Source: Pseudomonadota bacterium
GTDB taxonomy: Bacteria > Pseudomonadota > Gammaproteobacteria > Acidiferrobacterales > Acidiferrobacteraceae
Assembly (NCBI GenBank): GCA_021816625.1
Contig: JAKAXM010000006.1
Location: 1 to 64,000, forward strand
Direction of reading: 5' to 3'
Length of the DNA: 64,000 nt
Part shown: in pieces, positions 13,983 through 29,200 of the stretch
How positions within the stretch are numbered: the stretch's first letter is position 1
How the letters are laid out: every line of letters starts with the position of its first letter
The notes under the pieces: generated by a model
What the model was told of the DNA's origin: nothing
The model's input: the letters and a program-made list of their open reading frames with translations, nothing else
Database searches by the model: none
Program-made: the position numbers and the translations under genes

Positions 13983-15320
13983 ATGACCACACCGCACCGG
14001 GCGGCCTTGAAGATCGTAGTCCTAGACGACGATCCGACGGGCGCACAGACCGTGCATTCGTGCCCCCTGCTCTTGCGCTGGGACACGTCGGCGTTGAAGG
14101 CCGCCTTGCAGGCCCCGGCAGGACTTTTCTTTATCCTGACCAACACCCGCAGCATGGCCGCCGACGATGCTGCCCGGACGGTCCGGGAGGTCTGTCGCAA
14201 CCTGCGTACCGCCTTGCAGGAGCTCGCGGCCGAAGGCGTCGTCATCCATCCGATCTATGTAAGTCGGTCCGACTCGACGCTGCGCGGCCATTATCCCATC
14301 GAGACCGACGTGATGGCGGCAGAGCTTGGGCCCTTCGATGCGCATTTTCTGGTGCCGGCCTTCTTCGAGGGCGGGCGCATCACTCGGGGCGCGCAGCATT
14401 ACATACTGATGGACGGCGTCCCGGTCCCCGTTCACGAAACGGAGTTTGCCCGCGATACGGTATTCGGCTACCGCCACAGTTACCTTCCCGACTACGTGGA
14501 GGAGAAAACAGCCGGGCGTATCCGGGCCGCCGATGTCGTCCATCTGTCCTTAGCGGAGATCCGTAGCGGATGTGCCGGGCAGCTGCAGGCCCTGTCCGGA
14601 AATATCTGCTGCGTCGTCGACGCTATCCAACAGACTGATCTCGACGGCTTTTGCCGGGATCTGCGCATTGCCGCAGGTGCCGGGAAGCGCTTTCTGTTTC
14701 GCAGTGCCGCAAGCCTGCTCACCTCGCTCGCCGCGCTCCCGCCCCAACCGCTGCCGGCCGAGGCCATGTCCACCTACGCCCAGAGTGCAGCCGGCGTCGT
14801 GCTGGTCGGTTCCCATGTCCGCAAGACCACTGAGCAACTGGTATTACTGTTGCGCGAACCGGGGGTCTGGGGTGTCGAGATCGACGTGGACCACGTCACC
14901 GACCCAGACAGCGAGGCGCGCGTGCAGACGATTTTAAAAGAGGTCTCAGCGGCGCAGGCGGCACACAAGACCGTCGCGCTCTACACGAGCCGGTCCGAAC
15001 GCCAATTCCCCGACACCGCCGCGCGGCTGAGCTTCGGGGCGGCGGTGTCGGCCTTCCTCATGCGTGTCGTACGCGGCTTGCCCCGGAGCATAGGGTTTTT
15101 GATCAGCAAGGGCGGGATCACCTCTAACGATGTGCTGAGCGTAGGTCTGGCCCTTGCAAGCTGCGAGGTGGTCGGACAGATACTGCCCGGCTGTTCCGTC
15201 GTTCTGTGCCCAGATGACCATCCGCGCCACCCGGCCATGCCCGTCGTGATCTTTCCCGGCAACGTGGGCGACGCGGAGGCCTTGCGGACCGTCTTTCGCC
15301 GCATGACCGCGCGCTACTGA
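13983..15320 (+). CDS. Four-carbon acid sugar kinase family protein (YgbK/OtnK-like)
   Basis: A 445-residue DUF1537/YgbK-family kinase; characterised members phosphorylate D-threonate or D-erythronate. Seen here: N-terminal VLDDDPTGAQTVH (substrate-binding domain signature), SRSDSTLRGHYPIE, FLVPAFFEGGRIT, and in the nucleotide-binding domain GFLISKGGITSNDV near residue 375. Length is normal. It follows the phosphoketolase-like gene after nine bases and ends four bases before the convergent glycosidase stop. Phosphorylation of a C4 acid next to an enzyme that could release a C4 aldose phosphate is suggestive, but the real substrates are unknown. Confidence 0.82.
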   Translation: MTTPHRAALKIVVLDDDPTGAQTVHSCPLLLRWDTSALKAALQAPAGLFFILTNTRSMAADDAARTVREVCRNLRTALQELAAEGVVIHPIYVSRSDSTLRGHYPIETDVMAAELGPFDAHFLVPAFFEGGRITRGAQHYILMDGVPVPVHETEFARDTVFGYRHSYLPDYVEEKTAGRIRAADVVHLSLAEIRSGCAGQLQALSGNICCVVDAIQQTDLDGFCRDLRIAAGAGKRFLFRSAASLLTSLAALPPQPLPAEAMSTYAQSAAGVVLVGSHVRKTTEQLVLLLREPGVWGVEIDVDHVTDPDSEARVQTILKEVSAAQAAHKTVALYTSRSERQFPDTAARLSFGAAVSAFLMRVVRGLPRSIGFLISKGGITSNDVLSVGLALASCEVVGQILPGCSVVLCPDDHPRHPAMPVVIFPGNVGDAEALRTVFRRMTARY

Positions 15321-15324
15321 TCCT

Positions 15325-17157
15325 TCACAGCTCGTCATTCACCCACCCACCCCTAAAGGGCCCGGAACCGGCGCGTGCCCGATGGGCGGCTGGCCCGCCC
15401 AGGGACAGGTTATGGGCGGTATTGATGAGCCCTACGTGTGAGAAGGCCTGCGGAAAGTTGCCGACCAGACGCCGTTGCTTGGTGTCGTACTCCTCGGCGA
15501 GCAGCCCCACATCATTGGCGACCCCGGCGACCCGCTCGAACACGGCGCAGGCCTTGGCCTTGTCACCATGGAGCGCGTAGTTGTCGGCCAACCAAAACGT
15601 ACAGGCCAAAAACGCCCCCTCGCCCGCATCCAGGCCGTCCTGGCCATCCGGCGTATAACGTCGCACAAAGCCATCACTCACGAGCTCGCGCTCGATCGCG
15701 CGCACCGTGTTAACCACGCGTTCATCGTGGGCTGGCAAAAAACCTACCAGCGCCAGCAGGAGCGCGGAGGCGTCGAGCTTGTCGCTGCCATAGCTTTGCA
15801 CGAAAGACTGTTTCTTCTCGTCATAGCCGTTCTGGCATACCTGGTCGTGTATGCGCTGGCGCAGGGCACGCCAGCGGTCCACCGGACCCTCTTGGCCGAA
15901 GTTTTCGACCGCCTTGACCGCGCGGTCGGCCGCCACCCAGGCCATGACCTGAGAAAAGACGTGGGGCCGGTTCGGACCGCGCTCTTCCCATAGCCCGGCG
16001 TCCGGCTGGTCCCAGCCTCCTTCCAAAAAATCCATGAGACCGCACTGAATGCCCCAACTGTTCTGGTCGTCGTGAAAACCCTGGCTACGGCTGAGGTGCA
16101 GGGCGTCCATCACCTCGCCATAGACGTCGATCTGGCACTGCTTGTAGGCGGCGTTACCCAAACGCACCGGCCGGCTGTGCGCGTAGCCTGGCAACCATGG
16201 GGCCTCGCGTTCTTCCAAAGAGCGCTCACCGCCCAGCCCGTACATGATCTGGATGCGTCCCGGCTGCCCCGCCACCGCCCGGCACAACCAGTCGCGCCAA
16301 GCGCGCGCCTCCTTGCGGAACCCCGCAAGACCCAGGGCGTACAAGGTGAATGTGGCGTCACGTAACCAGCAATAGCGGTAGTCCCAGTTGCGGGGGCCGC
16401 CCAGATCCTCCGGCAAGGACGTCGTCGCCGCCGCCACAATTCCGCCCGTAGGGTTGAAGGTGAGGGCCTTGAGCGTGAGCGCAGAACGCCGCACCAGGGG
16501 GGCGTAAGGACCCTCCTTGGGCATATGGCGGGCCCACTCGGTCCAAAAGGCCTCTGTTTGGGCCAAGGCCTGCTCCGGATCACGCCGCTTGGGTTCCGGG
16601 CGATACGAGGCACTGCGGGTGAGCACGAATGCCGCCTGTTGTCCCGCCGCCACCGTGAACGCGGCGTGGACCTCGCCGCCGGTCCGCACGAGCGGGCAGG
16701 GGGCATAGAGGAAATAGGCGTCGGGCCCGGCAAAGGCGTGCAGCCGGGATTCGTCGATCTGGACCCAGGGCAGCACCGACCCGTACTCGAGCCGCAGCCG
16801 CAGGGCGAGACGCATAGGCACTACGCCGGCCCGACCGTATAGAACGCGGATCACGTCGGTGACGCCGCCTGAGCGCGGCGAGGGCATGAAGTCGACGAGA
16901 TCGACAGCGCCATCGTCAGTCTCGAAACGGGTCTCAAGCACCAGGGTGTCTTCGCGATAGCGGCGCACCACCCGGCGCACCCCGCCTGCGGGGCTCAGCA
17001 AAAAGCGGCCGTGGTCCTCCGTACCGAGCAGGCCCGCAAGGCAGGCCGGGGAGCTGAACGTAGGGACGCATAACCAGTCGATCGAGCCGTCGCGGGCCAC
17101 CAAGGCGGCCGTATGGGTATTGCCGATCACGGCGTAGTCTTCTATCGGTGCACTCAT
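15325..17157 (-). CDS. Glycoside hydrolase family 15 protein (trehalase/glucoamylase-like)
   Basis: A 610-residue cytosolic GH15 protein; no signal peptide. The N-terminal beta domain starts IEDYAVIGNTHTAALVARDG and SIDWLCVPTFSSPA, usual in bacterial GH15 proteins. The (alpha/alpha)6 catalytic domain has GPRNWDYRYCWLRDATF (254-270) and GLWEERGP with the likely general acid at Glu391 or Glu392. Members hydrolyse alpha-glucosidic bonds, often in trehalose or maltooligosaccharides, by inversion. It stands alone on the minus strand. Confidence 0.85.
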   Translation of the reverse strand: MSAPIEDYAVIGNTHTAALVARDGSIDWLCVPTFSSPACLAGLLGTEDHGRFLLSPAGGVRRVVRRYREDTLVLETRFETDDGAVDLVDFMPSPRSGGVTDVIRVLYGRAGVVPMRLALRLRLEYGSVLPWVQIDESRLHAFAGPDAYFLYAPCPLVRTGGEVHAAFTVAAGQQAAFVLTRSASYRPEPKRRDPEQALAQTEAFWTEWARHMPKEGPYAPLVRRSALTLKALTFNPTGGIVAAATTSLPEDLGGPRNWDYRYCWLRDATFTLYALGLAGFRKEARAWRDWLCRAVAGQPGRIQIMYGLGGERSLEEREAPWLPGYAHSRPVRLGNAAYKQCQIDVYGEVMDALHLSRSQGFHDDQNSWGIQCGLMDFLEGGWDQPDAGLWEERGPNRPHVFSQVMAWVAADRAVKAVENFGQEGPVDRWRALRQRIHDQVCQNGYDEKKQSFVQSYGSDKLDASALLLALVGFLPAHDERVVNTVRAIERELVSDGFVRRYTPDGQDGLDAGEGAFLACTFWLADNYALHGDKAKACAVFERVAGVANDVGLLAEEYDTKQRRLVGNFPQAFSHVGLINTAHNLSLGGPAAHRARAGSGPFRGGWVNDEL

Positions 17158-17336
17158 AGGCTCCGAGTCTCAAGGGGGCGATGGCGAGGTGCCGCGGCCC
17201 CCATCATACGAACGGCGGGACGGCCCCGCATCCGCCCCGCGCAGGGTGGGGCCCGCAGCCGTACTTGCGCCGAGGCCTGGTTTTCCTTATAGTGCGGCGT
17301 CTTTGCATCCGAATACGCCCCTTGGCGAGGCGCACC

Positions 17337-17543
17337 ATGAAAGCCGATATCCATCCAGAATACCGAACCATAACCGTTACCTGTGCTTGCGGGAACGTCT
17401 TCAAGACCGGCTCCACCCTGGCTCACGATCTGGCCGTCGAGGTGTGCTCGGTCTGCCACCCGTTCTATACGGGCAAGCAGAAGATCGTGGATAGCACAGG
17501 GCGCGTCGAGAAGTTCCGTCAGAAGTACGGCCTGCGCAAGTAG
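17337..17543 (+). CDS. rpmE: 50S ribosomal protein L31, zinc-binding form
   Basis: 68 residues: [20 protein letters not shown], then [20 protein letters not shown] and a basic end. The cysteines of the zinc-binding (C+) form are present (C16, C18 and the CSVCH pair). The frame is open further upstream, but the family start and length fix the ATG at 17337. Malic enzyme follows after 14 bases. Confidence 0.96.
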
Positions 17544-17557
17544 GCGGTCTTCGGCGT

Positions 17558-18820
17558 ATGACCGATAAGACACGGGAGGCGGCGCTCGCCTATCACGCGG
17601 CGCATCCACCCGGAAAGATCGCGATCACCGCCACGAAGCCCTGCGATACGCAAGGCGAGTTGGCGCTCGCGTATACCCCAGGGGTCGCCGAGCCCGTGCG
17701 CGCGATCGCCGCAGACCCTGAAGACGCCTACCGTTACACCGCCAAAGGCAATCTCGTAGCCGTCGTAAGCGATGGGACCGCGGTGCTCGGTCTTGGCAAT
17801 GTCGGGGCGCTCGCATCCAAGCCCGTGCTCGAGGGCAAGGCCGTGCTCTTTAAGCGCTTCGCGGATATCGATGTCTTCGATCTCGAGATCGACGCCCCGG
17901 ACCCGGAGCAGTTCATTGAGATCGTTGCCGCGCTGGCACCCACCTTCGGCGGCATCAACCTCGAAGATATCGCGGCGCCGGCCTGCTTTGCGATCGAAAA
18001 GGCCCTGCGCGAACGGCTGTCCATCCCGGTATTTCACGACGACCAGCACGGTACCGCCGTGATCGTCTGCGCGGGCCTCCTAAACGCCCTCGAACTGCAA
18101 GGCAAGTCCCTGCCGGGCGCGCGCATCGTCTGTCTGGGCGCCGGCGCGGCCGGTCTCACCTCCATGCGGCTGCTCATGCGGCTGGGGGCGCGGCGCGAAA
18201 ACATCAGCCTCGTGGATAGTCGCGGGGTGATCCATAGTGAACGCACCGACCTAAACGACTACAAACGCGAATTCGCTCATGTGACGACCTTGCGCACGCT
18301 GCGCGATGCCATGGCGGGGGCGGATGTGTTCGTTGGGGTCGCGGCAGCGGGACTCGTCGATGCCGCCATGGTGCAAAGCATGGCGGCGCGCCCGATCGTG
18401 TTCGCCTTGGCAAATCCGGTGCCGGAAATCCTGCCGGAACAGGCGCACGCCGCCCGTCCCGACCTCGTAATGGCCACCGGGCGCTCCGACTACCCCAATC
18501 AGATCAATAACGTCCTGGGCTTCCCGTTCATCTTTCGGGGAGCGCTTGACGTACGCGCGCGGCAGATCAACGAGGCCATGCAGCTCGCCGCCGTCCATGC
18601 CCTAAGCGCCCTCGGGCGGCTACCGGTGCCGGCGGAGGTCCTCAAGGCCTACCGGCTGGAGCGGCTCGAGTACGGCCCGGATTATTTCATACCGAAACCC
18701 CTCGATCCGCGTCTCCGGGACTGGGTGCCACCGGCGGTCGCGCGCGCCGCGATCGCAAGCGGCGTGGCCAAGGCCCCCTATCCCCGCCATTACCCCGCAG
18801 ACGCCGGCGCGCGGACTTAA
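17558..18820 (+). CDS. maeB: NAD(P)-dependent malic enzyme, short form
   Basis: A 420-residue malic enzyme converting malate to pyruvate and CO2. Seen: [30 protein letters not shown], the metal/substrate segment [13 protein letters not shown] and [12 protein letters not shown], a Rossmann motif [11 protein letters not shown], and ALANPVPEI. It lacks the C-terminal phosphotransacetylase domain of long MaeB proteins. It opens a four-gene run (malic enzyme, malate dehydrogenase-like, prmB) directly after rpmE, with an AT-containing gap of 59 bases before the next gene. Confidence 0.92.
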
Positions 18821-18879
18821 ATCGGGTTCCAAACGTCTATACTTTAAGTATGAAGGTCAGACGGCCGCGGGGGCCCGGA

Positions 18880-19812
18880 ATGAAGAAGATCTGTGTCGTG
18901 GGTAGTGGCCCTATCGGGGAAAGTACGGCGCAGATCCTCGCCCAGCGGGAGCTTTGCCAGGAGATCGTGTTGATAGCCAACCACGAGGATCTCGTGGAAG
19001 CAGCCGTCGTCGATCTGCTCCAGAGCGCAGCCCTTTTGGGCTTTGATACGCGCGTACGGGGCAGCACGGACATGAATGCGGTGGTCGGTGCCGACGCGGT
19101 CATCATTTCCGCCGGCACTCCCGAGCCCGCTCGCCTCGAGACCGACCCGGCCATCGACGCTAGCGCCGGGCTCGTAGCGGCCGCGGCGCGGGCGGCGGGC
19201 GCCCTGGCCCCAGAGGCGCTCCTCCTCGTGGTTAGCGATCCGGCCCCCCTCATGACCCATATCGCCTGGCACCAGAGTGGGCTCGAACGAGAACGGGTGA
19301 TAGGGGTAGCGGGCGCGCTCGACGCGGCGCGGATGGCAAGCCTCATCGCCATCGAGGCCGGACTCTCGGTGCGCGACGTACGGGCGCTAGTCATGGGCCG
19401 CTATGGCGATACGGTGTTACCGCTCCCCCGCTACAGCACGATAAGTGGCATACCGGTAAGCGAGTTCCTGAGCGAGGCCGCCATCGAGCGGGTGCTGCGG
19501 CGTATGCGCCAGGGGACGGTCCTGCCCCATAGGGCCATCGGGAACTCGGTAGCACCCGCAGAGGCAGTCGTGGCACTCATAGATGCCGTCGCCCGCAATC
19601 GGTCTCGGATCCTGCCCGCCGTATGCGTCCTGGACGGCGAGTATGGCGAGACCGGCGTCGCGCTGGATGTGCCCGCGGTCATAGGGGGCCAAGGTATCGA
19701 GAAGATCGTGGAGCTGCCGCTAAACGTCGCCGAACAACAGGCCTTGCATGCGTCTGCTGGAGCGGTCCGCGCGGATCTCGCACGCCTGCCCCCGCCCTAT
19801 CGATCGCCGTGA
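18880..19812 (+). CDS. Malate dehydrogenase-like protein lacking catalytic residues
   Basis: A 310-residue member of the lactate/malate dehydrogenase family, best resembling LDH-like MDH: VVGSGPIGESTAQILA, AWHQSGLERERVIGVAGALD, VLDGEYGETGVALDVP. Key residues differ. The catalytic His of GGHGD is Tyr (GRYGDTVLP). The mobile-loop Arg residues of PRKPGMTR are absent (PEPARLETD). The Asn of SNP is Asp (SDPAP). The acidic NAD-ribose residue after the second strand is Ala. Only the Asp/Arg pair of LDxAR is kept. It is unlikely to be a working malate dehydrogenase. I chose the ATG at 18880, which gives family length. ATG at 18850 is also possible: TATACT lies just upstream of it. Confidence 0.8.
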   Translation: MKKICVVGSGPIGESTAQILAQRELCQEIVLIANHEDLVEAAVVDLLQSAALLGFDTRVRGSTDMNAVVGADAVIISAGTPEPARLETDPAIDASAGLVAAAARAAGALAPEALLLVVSDPAPLMTHIAWHQSGLERERVIGVAGALDAARMASLIAIEAGLSVRDVRALVMGRYGDTVLPLPRYSTISGIPVSEFLSEAAIERVLRRMRQGTVLPHRAIGNSVAPAEAVVALIDAVARNRSRILPAVCVLDGEYGETGVALDVPAVIGGQGIEKIVELPLNVAEQQALHASAGAVRADLARLPPPYRSP

Positions 19813-20714
19813 GGGCGTTTGCCGCCCCGCGGACGGTCCGCGACTATGTCTTGTATGGGGAACGCAGGCTTCGCGCGGCGCGCGTGGGCTTTGGCCACGG
19901 CACCGACAACGCCCGCGATGAGGCGGCCTGGCTCGTCGCCGGGGCCTTGGGTATCGCGCCCCAGGCCTTGGCGGCACACCTCGCGCGCCGCCCCGACCGG
20001 GGGGCCGCCGCGCGCATCCGCGCCCTGTTGGCCGCCCGTATCCGCACCCGCCAACCGCTTGCCTATCTACTGCACGAGGCCTGGTTTGCAGGCCGCGCCT
20101 ACTATATCGACCCGCGCGCCATCGTTCCCCGCTCCTTGATCGGTGAGTTCCTCGCCCCCGGCGCACCATCGCCGCTTGCCGATCCTGAGATAAGCACCGT
20201 GCTCGACTTGTGTACCGGTAGTGGGGCGCTGGCGATCGCGGCCGCCTACGCCTTCCCCGCGGCCCGGGTCGACGCCGTCGACTTGTCGGCCGACGCCCTG
20301 GCGGTGGCCGCTCGCAATGTCCGCCGCCATGGGCTCGCCGCGCGCGTAAACCTGATCCAGAGCGACCTTTTTACGGCGCTGGCCGGTCGCCGCTACGATC
20401 TCATTCTAAGCAACCCCCCCTACGTCCCGCGCGCGGACATGGCCGCCCTCCCTCGCGAATATCGCGCCGAACCGGCGCTGGCGCTGGTCGCGGGCGACGA
20501 TGGCCTGGCGCTCGCCCTACCCATTCTGCGCACAGCCCCCCACCACCTGACCGCAGACGGCCGTCTGGTCCTGGAGCTCGGTGCGACGCGCGCCGCGCTC
20601 GAGTCGCGGTTTCCCGACCAGGCCTTCTTGTGGCTTTCGACGGTGGGTGATGAGTCCGTGGGGTATTGGCACCGCGACGACCTGCTCGCCTGGGCGCAGC
20701 AAACCCGCCGTTAA
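19809..20714 (+). CDS. prmB: PrmB-type N5-glutamine methyltransferase
   Basis: A 301-residue SAM-dependent methyltransferase that in its best-known form methylates a glutamine of ribosomal protein L3. Helical N-terminal domain (TVRDYVLYGERRL, then NARDEAAWLVAGALGI), then PLAYLLHEAWFAGRAYYID, the SAM motif VLDLCTGSGALAI (~residue 135), and the catalytic SNPPYVPR. PrmC is related, but the WFxG..YYID segment and SNPPYVPR favour PrmB. The GTG start overlaps the preceding stop (GTGA), indicating translational coupling. Confidence 0.85.
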   Translation: MRAFAAPRTVRDYVLYGERRLRAARVGFGHGTDNARDEAAWLVAGALGIAPQALAAHLARRPDRGAAARIRALLAARIRTRQPLAYLLHEAWFAGRAYYIDPRAIVPRSLIGEFLAPGAPSPLADPEISTVLDLCTGSGALAIAAAYAFPAARVDAVDLSADALAVAARNVRRHGLAARVNLIQSDLFTALAGRRYDLILSNPPYVPRADMAALPREYRAEPALALVAGDDGLALALPILRTAPHHLTADGRLVLELGATRAALESRFPDQAFLWLSTVGDESVGYWHRDDLLAWAQQTRR

Positions 20715-21239: not shown

Positions 21240-22928
21240 CTATGACGGCCGCTTACCCTCATCACGGTCCTTGTAAAGCGCCTCTATCGCCGCCGCGTAG
21301 CGCGCCTCTATCCACTGACGCCGCACCTTCAAAGTCGGCGTCAAATAACCGTTTTCGGTAGTCCATGGGCCCGCCACCCGCAGCACGCGGCGGATACGGG
21401 TATAGCCGGGGAAGTTCCCAAGCTGGGCATTGGCGCGATCCCGCAGGATACGTTCATTGTCGATCGCGCTGACGGCAAGCAATGCGAGATCGCCCCGCCC
21501 CTCCCCGACCACCAGGGCCTGTTCGAAGGCGGTATCCGCTAGGATGGCCCGTTCGACATCGGCCGGCGCAACCTTCTCGCCGCTCGACAAGACGATGATG
21601 TCCTTGGCGCGACCGGTCACGTACAAAAGGCCGGCCGTGAGTCTCCCCAGATCCCCGGTATGAAAAAACCCGTCGGCGTCCAGCACCTCGGCACTGGCCT
21701 CCGGACGGTTCCAGTAACCAGCCATAACGTTCGGACCCTTGACGCAGATCTCCTCCTTTACGATGCGCACCTGCACATTGTCGAGGGGGCGTCCGACCGA
21801 GGCCAGGTCACGGTCGGCATAGCGGTTACAGCTGATCACAGGCGCGGTCTCGGTCAAACCATAGCCCTGCAAAAAATGCAGGCCGAGCCCGGAAAAAAAT
21901 CCGAGCAGGGACTCCGAGGCCGGCGCGCCGCCGATAAAGACGTAGCGCAAACGACCCCCAAGGCGGCGGCGCACGGCGCGCCCCACCGTAAGGTTATAAC
22001 AAAAGGCCTTGAGGGCGGTTCCCCACGATGCCCGCCTTTGGTGGACCTTAAACCCGAGCTCGGCGGCGCGCGTGACCCATCGCCAGCGCCGCGGCGCTCC
22101 TTGCAACTCATCTTGTAGGCGCGCGTAACTACGCTCGAAGATCTTTGGAACGCTCACAAGGATGGTCGGCCGCGCCGCCTGCAAGTCCGCGCCGAGCTCT
22201 GTTATGCCTCGCGAAAACACCGTGTGCGCGCCCATGGCGATCGCCACGTACTCGCCGACGGTGCGCTCGAGCATATGGGAGAGCGGCAGAAACGATAGGA
22301 AGCGATGGCGGCCGGCCGCTACCTCCGGGATCGCATCCAAGAGACCTTCGATATTGGCCAGCACATTGCCGTGGCTGAGCATCACACCCTTCGGACGCCC
22401 GGTGGTGCCCGAGGTGTACACGATGGTGGCGAGATCCTCACGCCCAACCGCGACCGGCGCAGGTCGGGGACCGGGGGCCGCGGCCAGCCAATGGGCGAAG
22501 GCCACAACCCCCCGCATCTCCTTCAATCCCACGATGCCGTCCAGGCCGCAGGCCAGTATCTCGGGGCTCGGCGCGCGATCGGTAAATAGCCAGCGGACGC
22601 CGGCATCGGTCAGACTATAGGCGATGTTATCGGGTCTATCATTGTAGAATAATGGAACTACGACGAGACCCAGGGATAACGCGGCCATGTCGCAGAAGAC
22701 CCAGTGGGGCGCGTTATAGGCGCAGATCCCGATACGGTCACCGCGGCGCAGGCCGCTTGCGGCCAGGGCCGCGGCGATCTCCTCCACGGCCGCACCCGCC
22801 TCCTGCCAGGTGTAGTCTCGCCAGGTCCGGCCGTCATGTCCGGTGTAGGCGCGCGCACCAGGGCTCGCTGCGACCCGTGCCGCAAACAAATCGGCGAGAC
22901 TGGCAAATGGGCGGCCCGCCACGATCAC
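21240..22928 (-). CDS. fadD: Long-chain acyl-CoA synthetase (AMP-binding)
   Basis: A 562-residue acyl-adenylate-forming ligase that activates fatty acids with ATP and CoA. Motifs: P-loop YTSGTTGRPKGVMLSHGN (~residue 165), the YGLTETAPV segment, and FHTGDLGRL with the hinge GRAKDIIVLSSGEKV. The C-terminal end carries the acyl-transfer lysine region (TLKVRRQWIEARY). The type is closest to long-chain ligases of the FadD15/FAA family. The start is GTG at 22928, overlapping the preceding stop as GTGA; a second GTG lies two codons on. It is the last gene of the beta-oxidation operon. Confidence 0.88.
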   Translation of the reverse strand: MIVAGRPFASLADLFAARVAASPGARAYTGHDGRTWRDYTWQEAGAAVEEIAAALAASGLRRGDRIGICAYNAPHWVFCDMAALSLGLVVVPLFYNDRPDNIAYSLTDAGVRWLFTDRAPSPEILACGLDGIVGLKEMRGVVAFAHWLAAAPGPRPAPVAVGREDLATIVYTSGTTGRPKGVMLSHGNVLANIEGLLDAIPEVAAGRHRFLSFLPLSHMLERTVGEYVAIAMGAHTVFSRGITELGADLQAARPTILVSVPKIFERSYARLQDELQGAPRRWRWVTRAAELGFKVHQRRASWGTALKAFCYNLTVGRAVRRRLGGRLRYVFIGGAPASESLLGFFSGLGLHFLQGYGLTETAPVISCNRYADRDLASVGRPLDNVQVRIVKEEICVKGPNVMAGYWNRPEASAEVLDADGFFHTGDLGRLTAGLLYVTGRAKDIIVLSSGEKVAPADVERAILADTAFEQALVVGEGRGDLALLAVSAIDNERILRDRANAQLGNFPGYTRIRRVLRVAGPWTTENGYLTPTLKVRRQWIEARYAAAIEALYKDRDEGKRPS

Positions 22929-24946
22929 TTGGTCAACGCCAGATGGGGGAAGACCCCAACTTCGGACCACGCGGCATCCGGACTGAAACGGGCGCCGTGA
23001 CGCCCGGTCAGTTCCTCGAGGCGGGCCCGCACCTCGGTCTTGCCCAACGCTTCGGCATAGGCAAGCGGTCCGCCCCGAAACGGGGCGAACCCGGTGCCGT
23101 AAACGAGGCCGATGTCGACGAGATCCGCATCGGCGACGAGCTGCAGACGGAGGCAACGCGCCGCCTCGTTGACGAGACGCATGATGAGGCGCTCGGCCAC
23201 GGCCGGGTCCGGCGGGGGCCGGCGGAACGTCCAGGCGCGGCGCCGCGGGTAGGTGTAGAACCCGCGTCCCGACTTCTTGCCCAGCCATCCGGCGGCCACC
23301 TGGCGCGCGAGCAGTGAGGGCACCGGCAGGTCCAGCGCCGCCCCAAGATTTTGGGCCACCGCGAGGCAGGTATCGAGACCTATGATGTCGGCCAGGGTGA
23401 TCGGGCCCATGGGCATCCCAAAGTCGGTCGCCGCGCGGTCGATCTCGGCGAGCGCCACCCCCTCCTCGGCGAGACTCATGGCCTCCAGCAGATAGGGCAG
23501 CAGGACCCGATTGACGAGGAAGCCGGGTGCGCTACGCACGACGATGGGCAAGCGGTCCAAGGCCACGGCCAGGCTACGCGCGGCAGCCAGGACCGGCGGG
23601 GCCGTGGCCGGCCCGGCAATGACCTCGATCAACGGCATCTTCGCGACCGGATTGAAGAAATGCAGACCGACCAGGCGCTCGGGGCGCGTCAGGACCGCGG
23701 CAAGTTCGTCCAAGGGAATACTCGAGGTGTTGGTTGCCATGATGGCATGAGCCGGAAGCCGCCCCTCGATCGCAGCCAACAAGGCACGCTTGGCATCCCG
23801 ATCCTCGGGTATGGCCTCGATGACCAGATCCGCCCGGGTAAGACCCGCCCCTTTCCCGTCCAAAAACAGACGGTCGGCGGCAAAGACGGCCGCACGCGGC
23901 GGGAGACGCCGGGCGAACAAGGCATGGGCCCGGCGCAAGGCCGCGGCCAGGATTGCGGGCTCACGATCCTGGAGGCTTACGCTAAAACCCTTCAAGGCCG
24001 CCCAGGCCGCGATCTCGGCGCCCATGACGCCGGCCCCAATGACGTGGATGCGACGCACATCGTGGGGCTCAGCGCGCGCCTGCCGCTTCAACTCCTCGGA
24101 CACCTCGAACAAGTGGACGAGGTGGCGACTGGCCGGGCTGACCAGCAGTTCGGCGCAAGACAAGGCCTCGGCCTCCAGGCCGGCCTGCCGACTCCACAAC
24201 GAGAGGATACGGCAAGGTGCCGGGTAGTGACCGCAATCGACCTGGGTCTTCAACCGCCACGACCAGGCGGCGCCAACATAGGGCCGCAGCCACGGCACGG
24301 CCAGCGCGGCCGCCCACCACGGCGGCCGCGCCCGTGCCGGCACCTTGTGCAGATAGGTGCGGGCGGCGGTCACGATCTCTCGTTCGGGCACACAGTCGTC
24401 GACAAGCCCTAGGGCATGGGCGCGGCGTGGGGCGAGCGAGCGCCCACTCAGCATAAGCGATAAGGCGGCGACCGCGCCGATCACCGCGGGTAGCCGCACC
24501 GTTCCGCCAAAACCCGGATGGATGCCGAGCCGCACCTCCGGCAGGCCCAGCGTCGTGCGGTCATCGTCGCAGGCGATGCGATAGCTGCAGGCGAGAGCGA
24601 GTTCAAGGCCGCCCCCCAGACAGGGTCCGTGGATGGCGGCGACCGACGGGTAGGGGAGCCGGCTCAAGCGTGTGAGCACCATTTGCCCGGCGCGTGTGAG
24701 CTCGGCGGCCCGCGCCGCGTCGGGTATGTGCCGGAATTCATGGATGTCGGCGCCCACCGAGAAGCCCTCGGGTTTCCCGGAACGGATCACAAGGCCGCGC
24801 AGGGACCGGGTTTCGAGTGTCGCCAATAGCTGGTCGAGCTCGCCCAGGACCTCGCGTGACAAGACGTTCTGGCGCCGGCCGGGGACATCCAGGATGAGTT
24901 CGGCGATGTCCCCGGCCTCTTTCAGGGTCCAGCTGCAGGCCCTCAT
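22925..24946 (-). CDS. fadB: FadB-like enoyl-CoA hydratase / 3-hydroxyacyl-CoA dehydrogenase
   Basis: A 673-residue bifunctional enzyme for steps two and three of beta-oxidation. The N-terminal crotonase domain (~1-200) has HGPCLGGGLELALAC and LGLPEVRLGIHPGFGG, with both catalytic Glu residues in place. The NAD-binding domain starts RIHVIGAGVMGAEIAAW (~310), with the catalytic His in GLHFFNPVAKMPLIEVI. Two C-terminal HAD domains follow (SAPGFLVNRVLLPY; DIGLVYGTGFAPFRGG). The ATG at 24946 overlaps the thiolase stop (ATGA). Shorter than E. coli FadB (~729), closer to the FadJ/peroxisomal type. Confidence 0.9.
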   Translation of the reverse strand: MRACSWTLKEAGDIAELILDVPGRRQNVLSREVLGELDQLLATLETRSLRGLVIRSGKPEGFSVGADIHEFRHIPDAARAAELTRAGQMVLTRLSRLPYPSVAAIHGPCLGGGLELALACSYRIACDDDRTTLGLPEVRLGIHPGFGGTVRLPAVIGAVAALSLMLSGRSLAPRRAHALGLVDDCVPEREIVTAARTYLHKVPARARPPWWAAALAVPWLRPYVGAAWSWRLKTQVDCGHYPAPCRILSLWSRQAGLEAEALSCAELLVSPASRHLVHLFEVSEELKRQARAEPHDVRRIHVIGAGVMGAEIAAWAALKGFSVSLQDREPAILAAALRRAHALFARRLPPRAAVFAADRLFLDGKGAGLTRADLVIEAIPEDRDAKRALLAAIEGRLPAHAIMATNTSSIPLDELAAVLTRPERLVGLHFFNPVAKMPLIEVIAGPATAPPVLAAARSLAVALDRLPIVVRSAPGFLVNRVLLPYLLEAMSLAEEGVALAEIDRAATDFGMPMGPITLADIIGLDTCLAVAQNLGAALDLPVPSLLARQVAAGWLGKKSGRGFYTYPRRRAWTFRRPPPDPAVAERLIMRLVNEAARCLRLQLVADADLVDIGLVYGTGFAPFRGGPLAYAEALGKTEVRARLEELTGRHGARFSPDAAWSEVGVFPHLALTK

Positions 24947-26232
24947 AGGCCACCCCCGCGGACCAGTAGGGCGCCACCCTGACCCCCGCCTATGCAAAGG
25001 GTCGCGAGTCCGAACGCGCCGGCCCGCAGCCGCCCGGAGCGGGCCAGATGCAAAACGAGCCGGGCGCCCGTGGCGCCGACCGGATGGCCGATCGCCACCG
25101 CCCCGCCTGCCGGGTTCAGGCAGGCGTCGTCGATGGGCCCGAGCGCCGCCGGCAGGTCCAGCTCATCGCGGGCATAATCGGCGCTGGCAAAGGCCGCCTG
25201 GCAGGCCAAGACCTGAGCGGCGAAGGCCTCGTTCAGTTCCACGTGAGCGAGATCGCTCGTACGGAGGCCATGGGCGGCCAGCAATCGGGCGGTCGCATGG
25301 ACCGGTCCCAAACCCATTTGCGCGGGATCCACCCCAGCCCAGGCATGGTCGACGATCTCCGCCAGCACCGGCAGCCGCCAGCGCCTAACCGCGGCCTCGC
25401 TCGCGAGGATGAGCAAGGCCGCGCCGTCGCTGATCTGCGAGCTGTTGCCGGAGGTCACAGTGCCGTAGCCGCGATCGAAGACGGGGCGCAGCTGCGCGAG
25501 TCGGTCTGGGCGCGCATCGGGGCGCACCCCGTCGTCGTGCCCGTAAAACGCACCGCGCGGCTCGTAGGCGGTCTCGATCTCGTCTGCCAAAACCCCGTCC
25601 GCTTGCGCGGCGGCCGCGCGCCGATGGCTTTGCAGGGCATAGTCGTCTTGGGCCGCGCGCGTGATCGCGAACCGGTGCGCCAGGATTTCGGCGGTCTGGC
25701 CCATCGACAGGCCCGCGACCGGATCGCTTAAACCGAGCAACAGAGAAAAGACCGGCTTTAGGTAGCGCGGACGCAGCCCCGCCAGGGCGCGCAGGCGTTG
25801 CAGCCCGCCCTTGGCGCGGGACACGTCTGCGAGCCAGCGCGTCATCGGCAAGGCCCATTGTACGGGCGCGCGACTCATGGCCTCGGTGCCGCCGGCCAGC
25901 ACCAGCTGGGCGCGGCCTGCGCTGATGCGGTCATAGGCGCTCGCCACGGCCTGCAGACCCGAACCGCAGTTACGCTGTACGGTGTGGGCCGGCACGCCAA
26001 AACCTGTGCCTAAGCGCAAACCCACGACGCGCGCGATGTTGGCCTCGTCGGCGGCCGGGATCACGCAGCCGAGGATCAATTCATCGAAATCGGGGGCATC
26101 GAACGGCTGGCGTGCCAGCAAGGCGCGTCCGGCGATGACCGCAAGATCGACGGCGCTAAACGGGCCTGGCCCGTTGCGTGCCTTCAAAAATGGGGTTCGC
26201 GCCCCGTCCACGACAAATACCCTGGCGCTCAT
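24943..26232 (-). CDS. fadA: Acetyl-CoA acyltransferase (thiolase)
   Basis: A 429-residue degradative thiolase, releasing acetyl-CoA in step four of beta-oxidation. The nucleophilic Cys lies in RNCGSGLQAVASAYD (~residue 92), catalytic His residues in ELNEAFAAQ and AVAIGHPVGATGAR, and the second Cys in LCIGGGQGGA. Length fits the FadI-like group. The ATG at 26232 has GAGGGAGGGTGT just upstream and overlaps the stop of the giant flavoprotein gene by four bases (ATGA). Confidence 0.92.
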   Translation of the reverse strand: MSARVFVVDGARTPFLKARNGPGPFSAVDLAVIAGRALLARQPFDAPDFDELILGCVIPAADEANIARVVGLRLGTGFGVPAHTVQRNCGSGLQAVASAYDRISAGRAQLVLAGGTEAMSRAPVQWALPMTRWLADVSRAKGGLQRLRALAGLRPRYLKPVFSLLLGLSDPVAGLSMGQTAEILAHRFAITRAAQDDYALQSHRRAAAAQADGVLADEIETAYEPRGAFYGHDDGVRPDARPDRLAQLRPVFDRGYGTVTSGNSSQISDGAALLILASEAAVRRWRLPVLAEIVDHAWAGVDPAQMGLGPVHATARLLAAHGLRTSDLAHVELNEAFAAQVLACQAAFASADYARDELDLPAALGPIDDACLNPAGGAVAIGHPVGATGARLVLHLARSGRLRAGAFGLATLCIGGGQGGALLVRGGGL

Positions 26233-29200
26233 ACACCCTCCCTCGCTTGGCGGTTTCCGGTTGTCCCCAAGGCCGCGAGTAGACCTTCGACCCAAGGGCG
26301 GACATCGCCTACGCAACGGATCGGCAGTACGGCGCCGGTCCGCGGCGCAAAGATCGGCGCCTCTCCGTCCGTATTGACGGCCACGATCTGGGTACCCGGA
26401 GCGATCCCCATGAGATGCTGCGGGGCGCCCGAAACGCCGAGCGCGAGCAAGATCCGGGGCGCAACCAACACACCCGTCTGTCCGATCTGAGCCTCGGCCG
26501 GCACAAGCCCGGATTCCTGGACCACCTTGCGCGTCGCGCCCAGCATGACCTCGCAGCCCATGATAACCGAGAGTGCCGCCTTAAGCTGCACGAGGTCGCG
26601 CGGCAACAGACCGGCCTCCGCCGCGCCGCTGCCTATGTCGATCACCACCTCGGCATCCGCAAGGCCTGCCGGGCCTCGTCGGCGGCGGCCTTGCGCCCAC
26701 GCCCCGCGGGCTTGGATCGGAGGCCCAAGATCTACGATAGTGCATTCTTCCGCCTCTACGGGCGCCTCGGCCGTAGGGTCCGGTGCGGCAATGAGGATGG
26801 CTGATGGCGGGCACGGGGTAAACCAGGCCTGCACGGCCGTGCCCCCCACGAGATCCTCGCCGCGCCGGGCGCGCACCCCCGGGTACAGGGGGCGCGCCAG
26901 GAGCCGCGCCAAGGCCCCGGCTAGCTGCGCCTGATCCGGGCCGCATACGATATATGCGGCGGACTGCAGATGCGTCGCCAGGGCCGCGGCCACGGCCGCC
27001 ACGGGACCCGTCACCGCGAGTCTGTGGGTGCGCCCGGCACAGCCATCCGGAGGCGCTAGCGCGTCGGGCGGCGCCAACCATAAGCCCGTCACTGCCGGCC
27101 CCAGCGTGCGCGCCACGGCGAGTGCGCACCGGCCCTGCGGGCCTGCGACCGCGACCACGGGACCCGGCGGTCCCACCGGCCCGATGTGCCAGGGACGGCG
27201 AGGCGCGGATCCGCGGCCCTGGGCACGGAGCCAAGCGGCGAGTGCCGCGGGCGTGGTCAGGACGGGGGACGAGACCGGTGCCGGCGCCGGCGGCGGGGCC
27301 GGCCGCGTTGGATAGCCTGCCTGCGTCTGCACCAGGGGCGGATCTCGCAAGACCGTGAGCCAATCCGCGACCGTGAACTCATCAGACCGGCCGGTCGCCG
27401 GGCAGCGGCAGGCGAGGACTAGCAGCCGGCCACTCGCCGCCGGGCGCGTGCCGTGGTCCCCCAGCCGGACGTAGTAGCCGCGTGCGGCGCCCCGCAGACC
27501 CGTCACGCCCGCCAGGAACTCGGCGCCCAAGGCGCCGGCCAGGGCCGCCAAGAACGGCGGGGCCGCGGGGCCGGCGAGCAGCACATCGGGCGCCAAGGGC
27601 TGCACAGCCGCGGCGAGCCGGCTCGCATCCCCGAGACCCGACACGACATGACCCACGACCGCCGCCCCTGCCGCGCGCAGGCGTTGCAGGAGATCCGGGA
27701 CCGGCACGGGGGTCACGACCAAGGCGGTCAGCCGCAGGCCGGGCGCGCGGTCGTATGCGATCAGCAACTGATCGAGCACCGCGAGATCCCCAGCGTCCAG
27801 ACGTAGATCGGCGCCCGCCCCCTCGCCGTCTGCGCGAATCAGCGCCACGGCATGGCCGCGCAGACCGGCAAAGACCGGTGGTAGTGGTCCCCGCAGCATC
27901 GGCCGCGCGAGCCCAACACAGGCCTCCTCATAGGCGGACGCTTCGGCAAACAGGGCGCGGCAGGCCCTTTCGTGCGACGCCGTGGCATCACTCAAGGCCG
28001 CTTCGAAGTCTTCCAGGGCGTGTGCGGCCAGGTCCCCTGCGGTCCGTGCCGCCAGCGCCCGCCGGCGTTCCACAGCCGCCACCCACACATAGAGCTCGGC
28101 CACCCAATCGACGAGGGCAAAGCCCGGGATCTGAGCGTCGCCGTCGGTTGCGATGCGCGGTGCCAGGGCCACGACGCGAACGCGCGCGAACTCCCAGAAA
28201 CGGCGCAAGGCCTCGTCCAGGGCCGGGCTGCCGGTCGGCTCGGGGTCGGGCGCCGCCGCCAGCCAGTCCGGTAAATCCTTCAATACCAGGAAACGCTGGA
28301 CCTCATTGGTCCCCTCGTAGATATTCAGGATGCGCGCATCGCGTCGCCATTTCTCGATCAGTTCCGATGTCGCCGCGGCGGCCGGACCACGGACATCCTC
28401 GATGGCCTGCAAGACCCGTTGCAGGCCTTCCGACACCAGGAACTTAGAGAGCGCGGCCTCGATGCGGAAGTCCCCGCGCGACAAGTCGGCGCGATCCATG
28501 AGGCCAATGAGCCGGGCCCCGAGGACCCGCGCCCGCTCCTGCTCATACCGGACCAGGGTCCAGGCCGCGGGATGGGCGGCAAGTAGCGCGTCGTAATCAT
28601 GCCGCAGACGCGCGATGAGACCATCGACACCCACCACGAGGCCACCGCGCCCGACGCTCAAGGTTTCGAGCGCATTCACCTGGCCGTGACCCGCAAAACC
28701 AATGATGTGGCTTACACATACGCGTACCCCCCGCAGACTGAGCTCGTTGGTGGGCGAGGCCTGCTGGCCCAGTTTGCGCTCGTCGCGGCCCACGCCGAGA
28801 CCCTCGGAACGTCTATCCACCATGAAGCCGGTCTCACCCTGCGGGCCTTGGGCGTAGAGACAGTAGCGGTCGGCGAGCGAGCCGTTGGTGATCCACATCT
28901 TGGCCCCGGACAACACGAAATACTCGTACACGGGCCCGGTGGGGGTCGCAACCGGGGTCCCCGCGTCGTCGTAGTCGTAGGCCTCCCCGGAGGCGAGGAC
29001 GATACGCCGCTTGCCGCGCCGCGGCACGGCGTCCCAGAGGCTGTCATCGAGATGCGCCCACCGCCCGTCGGGCAAGCGGTAACCGGTCCCCGCGGGCGTG
29101 AATGCGAGCCGGCCTTCGTCGAGCAGGATGCGCGGACCTGCGTCTGTCGCGAACGTATAGAGACCGGCCGGTCCGGCCGTCAGGGCGGCACGCTGCGGGT

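Follow-up and report, generated by a model that had tools for sequence, protein, structure and literature searches.

The malate dehydrogenase (MDH) gene that is ordinary to its genus has probably become, in the lineage represented by a 64,000-nucleotide stretch of DNA from an acid-loving bacterium (hereafter the window), a catalytically dead pseudoenzyme whose fold is still maintained by selection. The residues presumably required for hydride transfer and for binding of the second carboxylate are gone, and the putative cofactor and substrate segments are nearly without similarity to those of relatives. As this cleft is rewritten and the rest of the protein evolves as slowly as intact MDHs, the sequence comparisons suggest that the fold remained under selection when catalysis was no longer selected.

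The only LDH-like gene of the genome

The gene of the probable MDH-like pseudoenzyme lies at 18880..19812 on the forward strand (310 codons and a stop), with a frame that is intact from the ATG at 18880 (an alternative in-frame ATG is found at 18850) to the TGA at 19810-19812. Its product matches both domains of LDH-like enzymes above their Pfam cut-offs (Ldh_1_N, 71.1 bits; Ldh_1_C, 59.9 bits), its nearest solved relative is the Chloroflexus MDH (E 7e-67), and it is 54-58% identical to its working congeners. An earlier note on this DNA had described an open gene for a protein of LDH-like MDH fold, and both statements hold. For TIGR01763, the bacterial MDH equivalog model, the protein scores 253.2 bits, below the cut-off of 351.85, versus 358.4 and 363.6 for the two intact congeners tested, both above it.

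The gene belongs to a malic enzyme/prmB cluster, as the same note had stated, where it stands after an rpmE-like and a malic enzyme gene and ahead of a prmB-like gene. The malic enzyme gene (17558..18820, forward strand), which is kept throughout the genus, ends 59 bases ahead of the ATG at 18880. It follows a ribosomal protein L31-like gene (17334..17543, forward strand), which we take to be rpmE, within a conserved rpmE-malic enzyme-[mdh]-prmB order. On the other side, the PrmB/PrmC-type methyltransferase gene (19809..20714, forward strand) has a GTG start that shares bases with the stop codon of its MDH-like neighbour (GTGA), and the same stop/start overlap is seen in three intact congeners. 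Further away in the window, adjacent acyl-CoA synthetase-like, FadB-like fusion and thiolase genes form a beta-oxidation set (21240-26316, reverse strand), and a four-carbon acid sugar kinase-like gene lies beside a GH15/trehalase-like gene of the opposite strand (13983-17157).

The genome that holds the window (2.19 Mb in 52 contigs, 99.14% complete, the window being part of a 105 kb contig) contains no second intact mdh: in a search of this genome at E values up to 1, the MDH-like protein matches itself alone, and it is also the only Ldh_1_N match. Similarly, profile searches of this genome detected neither a quinone-linked enzyme (Mqo, PF06039) nor an MDH of the Ldh_2 type. The search for another mdh or mqo that the earlier note had proposed thus returned neither, and the gene is not the paralogue which that note had taken it for. 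It is the single orthologue of the intact MDHs of four congeners, in the ancestral slot.

Cleft and core of the MDH-like protein

Residues are numbered here after the intact congener G008, a numbering that equals that of the window protein, counted from 18880, up to residue 212. Relative to G008, the protein carries R82E, R88T, N95S, N120D and H175Y, and has Ala at position 33. R82, R88, N95, N120, D148, R151 and H175 are kept in all 28 other MDHs compared (four from the genus and 24 rows from elsewhere in the order); among them, the window protein retains D148 and R151, together with glycines 8, 10 and 13 of the GxGxxG dinucleotide loop, present as GSGPIG at residues 8-13. For the catalytic His, the two mobile-loop Arg and the other named residues, we assume the roles given in the LDH/MDH literature.

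Position 33, at the end of beta-2 (codon 18976..18978, forward strand), which we take to be the NAD-ribose acid site of most MDHs, has a separate history. Since it is already Gly in the four intact congeners, versus Asp in each of the 24 sequences that do not belong to the genus, absence of the acid is a genus trait that is separate from the loss of the other residues. Of the losses named in the earlier note, those of the catalytic His and of the Arg loop are confirmed, and the beta-2 acid does not belong with them. Gly33, which is found in the mdh of G008, G012, G003 and G005 alike, may reflect a changed cofactor preference of these intact enzymes, perhaps towards NADP.

The changes are strongly clustered. 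Among 113 columns that are invariant in eight intact relatives (a set without L008 and L009), the window protein differs in 40, and these fall into 34 runs, versus 52.7 expected under permutation (P 0.0001). All 11 invariant columns are changed in the mobile Arg loop (residues 82-95; 19123..19164), which includes N95S and the replacement of both catalytic Arg, as are four of six in the V-T-N-P-V-D segment (residues 118-125; 19231..19254), which now reads V-S-D-P-A-P and includes N120D. A further four of six are changed at residues 172-180, where, in the alignment to relatives, Tyr replaces the catalytic His (codon 175; 19402..19404), and 11 of 17 in a rewritten helical segment (congener residues 209-237; 19504..19581), which has also lost three residues in frame. 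In the conserved core, by contrast, none of 17 invariant columns is changed at residues 126-171 (19255..19392), which contain D148 and R151, and none of eight at residues 181-208 (19420..19503), which contain the T187 position; all these segments are read on the forward strand.

A larger set gives the same picture. Against 26 intact sequences (without the incomplete G045 sequence and the second, divergent MDH of G039, with the G013 remnant outside the alignment and the one in-frame TAG of the G026 sequence read as X), 43 of 118 near-invariant columns are changed in the window protein, versus 0-4 for each of the 26 in leave-one-out comparisons. These 43 columns form 33 runs, versus 55.6 expected, and runs this few occurred in none of 50000 permutations.

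Identities to the congeners follow the same pattern. The Arg loop is 14% identical to those of congeners versus 93% between intact sequences, and identity to G003, G008 and G012 amounts to 0.14 for residues 82-95, 0.25 for 118-125 and 0.24-0.28 for 209-237, versus 0.79-0.86 for 181-208 and 0.64-0.70 for 238-306. The last two segments are 0.75-0.82 and 0.67-0.72 identical between intact congeners (G008 with G012 and G003). Outside the cleft (residues 126-171, 181-208 and the C-terminal quarter), conservation thus appears to be about equal to that of working relatives. The boundary between cleft and core was set post hoc, with the alignment in view; when the sites are instead fixed around established functional residues of MDHs, the contrast is weaker, though present in most of nine variants (Fisher P 0.001 to 0.19), in part owing to the retention of D148, R151 and the glycine loop. 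As for the origin of the rewritten Arg loop, a by-eye comparison with the bases of a congener loop revealed no shifted-frame match, and a pair of frameshifts is probably not its source.

Structure prediction suggests that the fold has survived these changes. The AlphaFold2 model of the MDH-like protein, built with eight relatives, has a pLDDT of 81.7 and a pTM of 0.84, with loops 80-88, 177-179 and 213-221 below 50, versus 89.5, 0.89 and no stretch below 50 for the model of an intact MDH (L002). Its best PDB match is again the Chloroflexus MDH (TM 0.84). The LDH-like bacterial MDHs (TIGR01763 / PRK06223; Chloroflexus aurantiacus 1guy, 1uxi and 4cl3) thus share with the window protein whole-length homology and predicted fold, as well as D148/R151, the glycine loop and the region of T187, a position at the tetramer's dimer-dimer interface. 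They differ from it in the replaced Arg loop, catalytic His and Asn residues, in the three residues missing from 209-237 and in the TIGR01763 score. According to alignments and PDB titles, engineered Chloroflexus dimer-dimer interface variants differ at positions matching 165 and 187 here; as both lie within the best-kept segments, oligomer contacts may persist, and the MDH oligomer may still form.

It is very improbable that the protein still works as a malate dehydrogenase whose active site is simply unusual. In favour of an active enzyme are the retained D148 and R151, the intact fold and the failure to detect another MDH, an Mqo or an Ldh_2 enzyme in this genome, but the His and both loop Arg, invariant in 28 of 28 relatives, have been lost along with N120 and N95. 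Furthermore, several congeners live without an LDH-like MDH, so that such an enzyme is not required. Given the replaced catalytic residues and the score below the curated cut-off, the protein should not be classified as a malate dehydrogenase, although it is built on the MDH fold.

A second alternative is that selection remodelled the cleft for another substrate or nucleotide, and that chemistry continues on the Rossmann scaffold. Retention of G8, G10 and G13 and of the D148/R151 pair, the intact predicted fold and the restriction of very fast change to the cleft are all compatible with such a new enzyme or ligand binder. However, the protein lacks the general acid/base His and both loop Arg, the model has very low confidence in the remodelled loops 80-88 and 213-221, and a conserved new site is found in no homologue, so that we consider this explanation unlikely. 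Indeed, no second protein with this rewritten cleft was detected in the genome contig collection (eight loci, aligned), nor in the family, the order or viral contigs; a single sequence from a single genome does not allow new conserved residues to be singled out.

Selection and decay at the mdh locus

If the gene has simply been released from selection, its core should have changed along with its cleft. On a fixed tree, the protein branch length of the window lineage is 0.277 for the core (prmB, 0.219; malic enzyme, 0.124) and 1.435 for the cleft, where other branches measure 0-0.10. Codon models (fitted to a set without L008) agree with this contrast: omega is raised in the cleft (0.21 versus 0.028, 2dlnL 43), and in the core it is 0.065 versus 0.113, a difference that is not significant, with a neutral core being rejected (2dlnL 39). 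Saturation at synonymous sites and a foreground branch length at or near its bound make the absolute omegas unreliable, so that only the contrast counts. Finally, in a neutral simulation that was run until the cleft had reached its observed identity, core identity would have dropped to 28%, and a stop was gained in 60 of 60 runs, the first one after a median of 43.5 substitutions. On the basis of clustered changes, branch lengths, codon fit and simulation, we reject uniform neutral decay. The signs of continued selection (core conservation, branch lengths and simulation) come from a single lineage and depend on a division into cleft and core that was made post hoc.

Decay of mdh is nonetheless well represented among the relatives, as the genus is losing this gene. 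Among the 18 genomes of the family, an intact orthologue is present in four (G003, G005, G008 and G012), the window carries the remodelled gene and G013 a remnant. In nine others (G001, G002, G004, G006, G007, G009, G010, G011 and G014), the gap between malic enzyme and prmB measures only 53-309 bases, with a 113-base trace of mdh in the slot of G007. The malic enzyme gene of G008 is not followed by prmB, which is found together with mdh at another position. The slots of G015 (where the contig ends) and of G016 and G017 (where no malic enzyme was found) were out of view. Ldh_1_N has no match in 11 of the 18 genomes, some of which are incomplete. G013 and G001 each encode a second, divergent LDH/MDH-like protein of 365-366 residues at another locus (L039:1971-3071, reverse strand, and L040:2437-3534, forward strand), with the HGD motif kept; this is perhaps a replacement enzyme.

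The G013 remnant provides a direct view of decay at this position. Its mdh slot contains pieces with stops and frame changes, 69% identical at the base level to the G008 gene over about 426 bases. In the 28 core columns that it covers, nine are changed in G013 versus one in the window protein (P 0.012); within the remnant itself, the pieces of which were located by similarity, changes affect 18 of 28 cleft columns versus nine of 28 core columns (P 0.03). The G013 pseudogene and the nine emptied slots share with the window gene the malic enzyme-prmB locus and, probably, the end of MDH catalysis. They part company over the marks of a pseudogene: G013 shows stops, frameshifts and core changes, whereas the window gene has an open frame, clustered changes and a kept core.

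These observations bear on a third alternative, namely that the window gene is a young pseudogene in which a stop has yet to appear, its frame perhaps being held open by coupled translation of prmB through the GTGA overlap. The remnants in G013 and G007 and the nine empty slots would make such a fate unsurprising, the stop/start overlap with prmB is shared by the window and three intact congeners, and single simulated runs stayed free of stops for up to 363 substitutions in spite of the much lower median. Coupling, however, guards the frame and not the amino acids, and 0 of 25 invariant columns are changed in residues 126-171 and 181-208 taken together, versus 11 of 11 in the Arg loop. As the core branch length is ordinary and the codon fit rejects a neutral core, we regard a decaying gene as quite unlikely. 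Our preferred reading remains a pseudoenzyme whose folded form is under continued selection. The suggestion of the earlier note that the gene may encode a moonlighting, regulatory or different-substrate protein accords with a rewritten cleft in a fold that otherwise remains under ordinary constraint. As related species have dropped mdh altogether, any new job of the protein would be specific to its lineage.

Metabolic setting and possible role of the probable pseudoenzyme

How the MDH step could be given up is suggested by the enzymes that the family retains. The earlier note had envisaged a quinone-linked replacement, an idea that we reject as far as PF06039 reaches: Mqo was found in none of the 18 family genomes, that of the window included, and the same model matches two control genomes. 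PEP carboxylase was likewise found in none of the 18. A classical 2-oxoglutarate dehydrogenase E1 exceeds the cut-off in none of them, with weak partial matches in all 18, which suggests that there is no closed cycle requiring MDH. Malic enzyme, on the other hand, is found in 16 of the 18 genomes, and a PYC/OadA-type carboxylase domain in all 18, although PF02436 does not tell pyruvate carboxylase from oxaloacetate decarboxylase. In addition, the genome of the window encodes a single fumarase-C-type protein, which scores best as an aspartate ammonia-lyase.

The more likely replacement of the MDH step would be a route from malate to pyruvate, through malic enzyme, and on to oxaloacetate, through the PYC/OadA-type carboxylase. 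In a pathway that lacks both PEP carboxylase and a classical 2-oxoglutarate dehydrogenase, the MDH step may have become dispensable because the adjacent malic enzyme would supply pyruvate and the PYC-type carboxylase oxaloacetate. The protein itself is predicted to convert little or no malate or oxaloacetate, and may instead act by binding a partner or a ligand, as a scaffold, sensor or regulator. We tentatively propose that catalysis was dropped in favour of the malic enzyme/carboxylase bypass of the genus, and that the fold and its oligomer interfaces were retained for use as a non-catalytic regulator or scaffold, perhaps acting on this very bypass.

A precedent comes from Arabidopsis. According to two articles (PMC8564385, PMC8042743), the plastidial NAD-MDH has a non-enzymatic role with the FtsH12-FtsHi complex (Schreier et al. 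2018), and its mutant is rescued by a non-functional variant. On this account, an MDH fold can perform an essential job that is not catalytic; the plant protein is, however, still an active enzyme in nature, whereas the bacterial protein of the window has lost the catalytic residues themselves. Our literature search, which covered titles and the beginnings of abstracts with subscription papers outside its scope, returned no bacterial MDH pseudoenzyme and nothing on malate metabolism in Acidiferrobacter.

MDH is usually regarded as a fixed component of central metabolism, and most genomes of this family have neither an LDH-like MDH nor Mqo. Within one genus and at one locus, there are an intact enzyme, a rewritten cleft with a preserved core, a pseudogene and clean deletions. 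For annotation, this is a warning, as such a gene will probably be labelled malate dehydrogenase and the pathway shown as complete. If the rewritten protein has a job, the locus would allow a direct comparison between a metabolic enzyme and the non-enzyme derived from it, with the congeners at 54-58% identity as controls. If that job is indeed one of regulator or scaffold, the window would offer a snapshot of the birth of a pseudoenzyme in a central carbon pathway.
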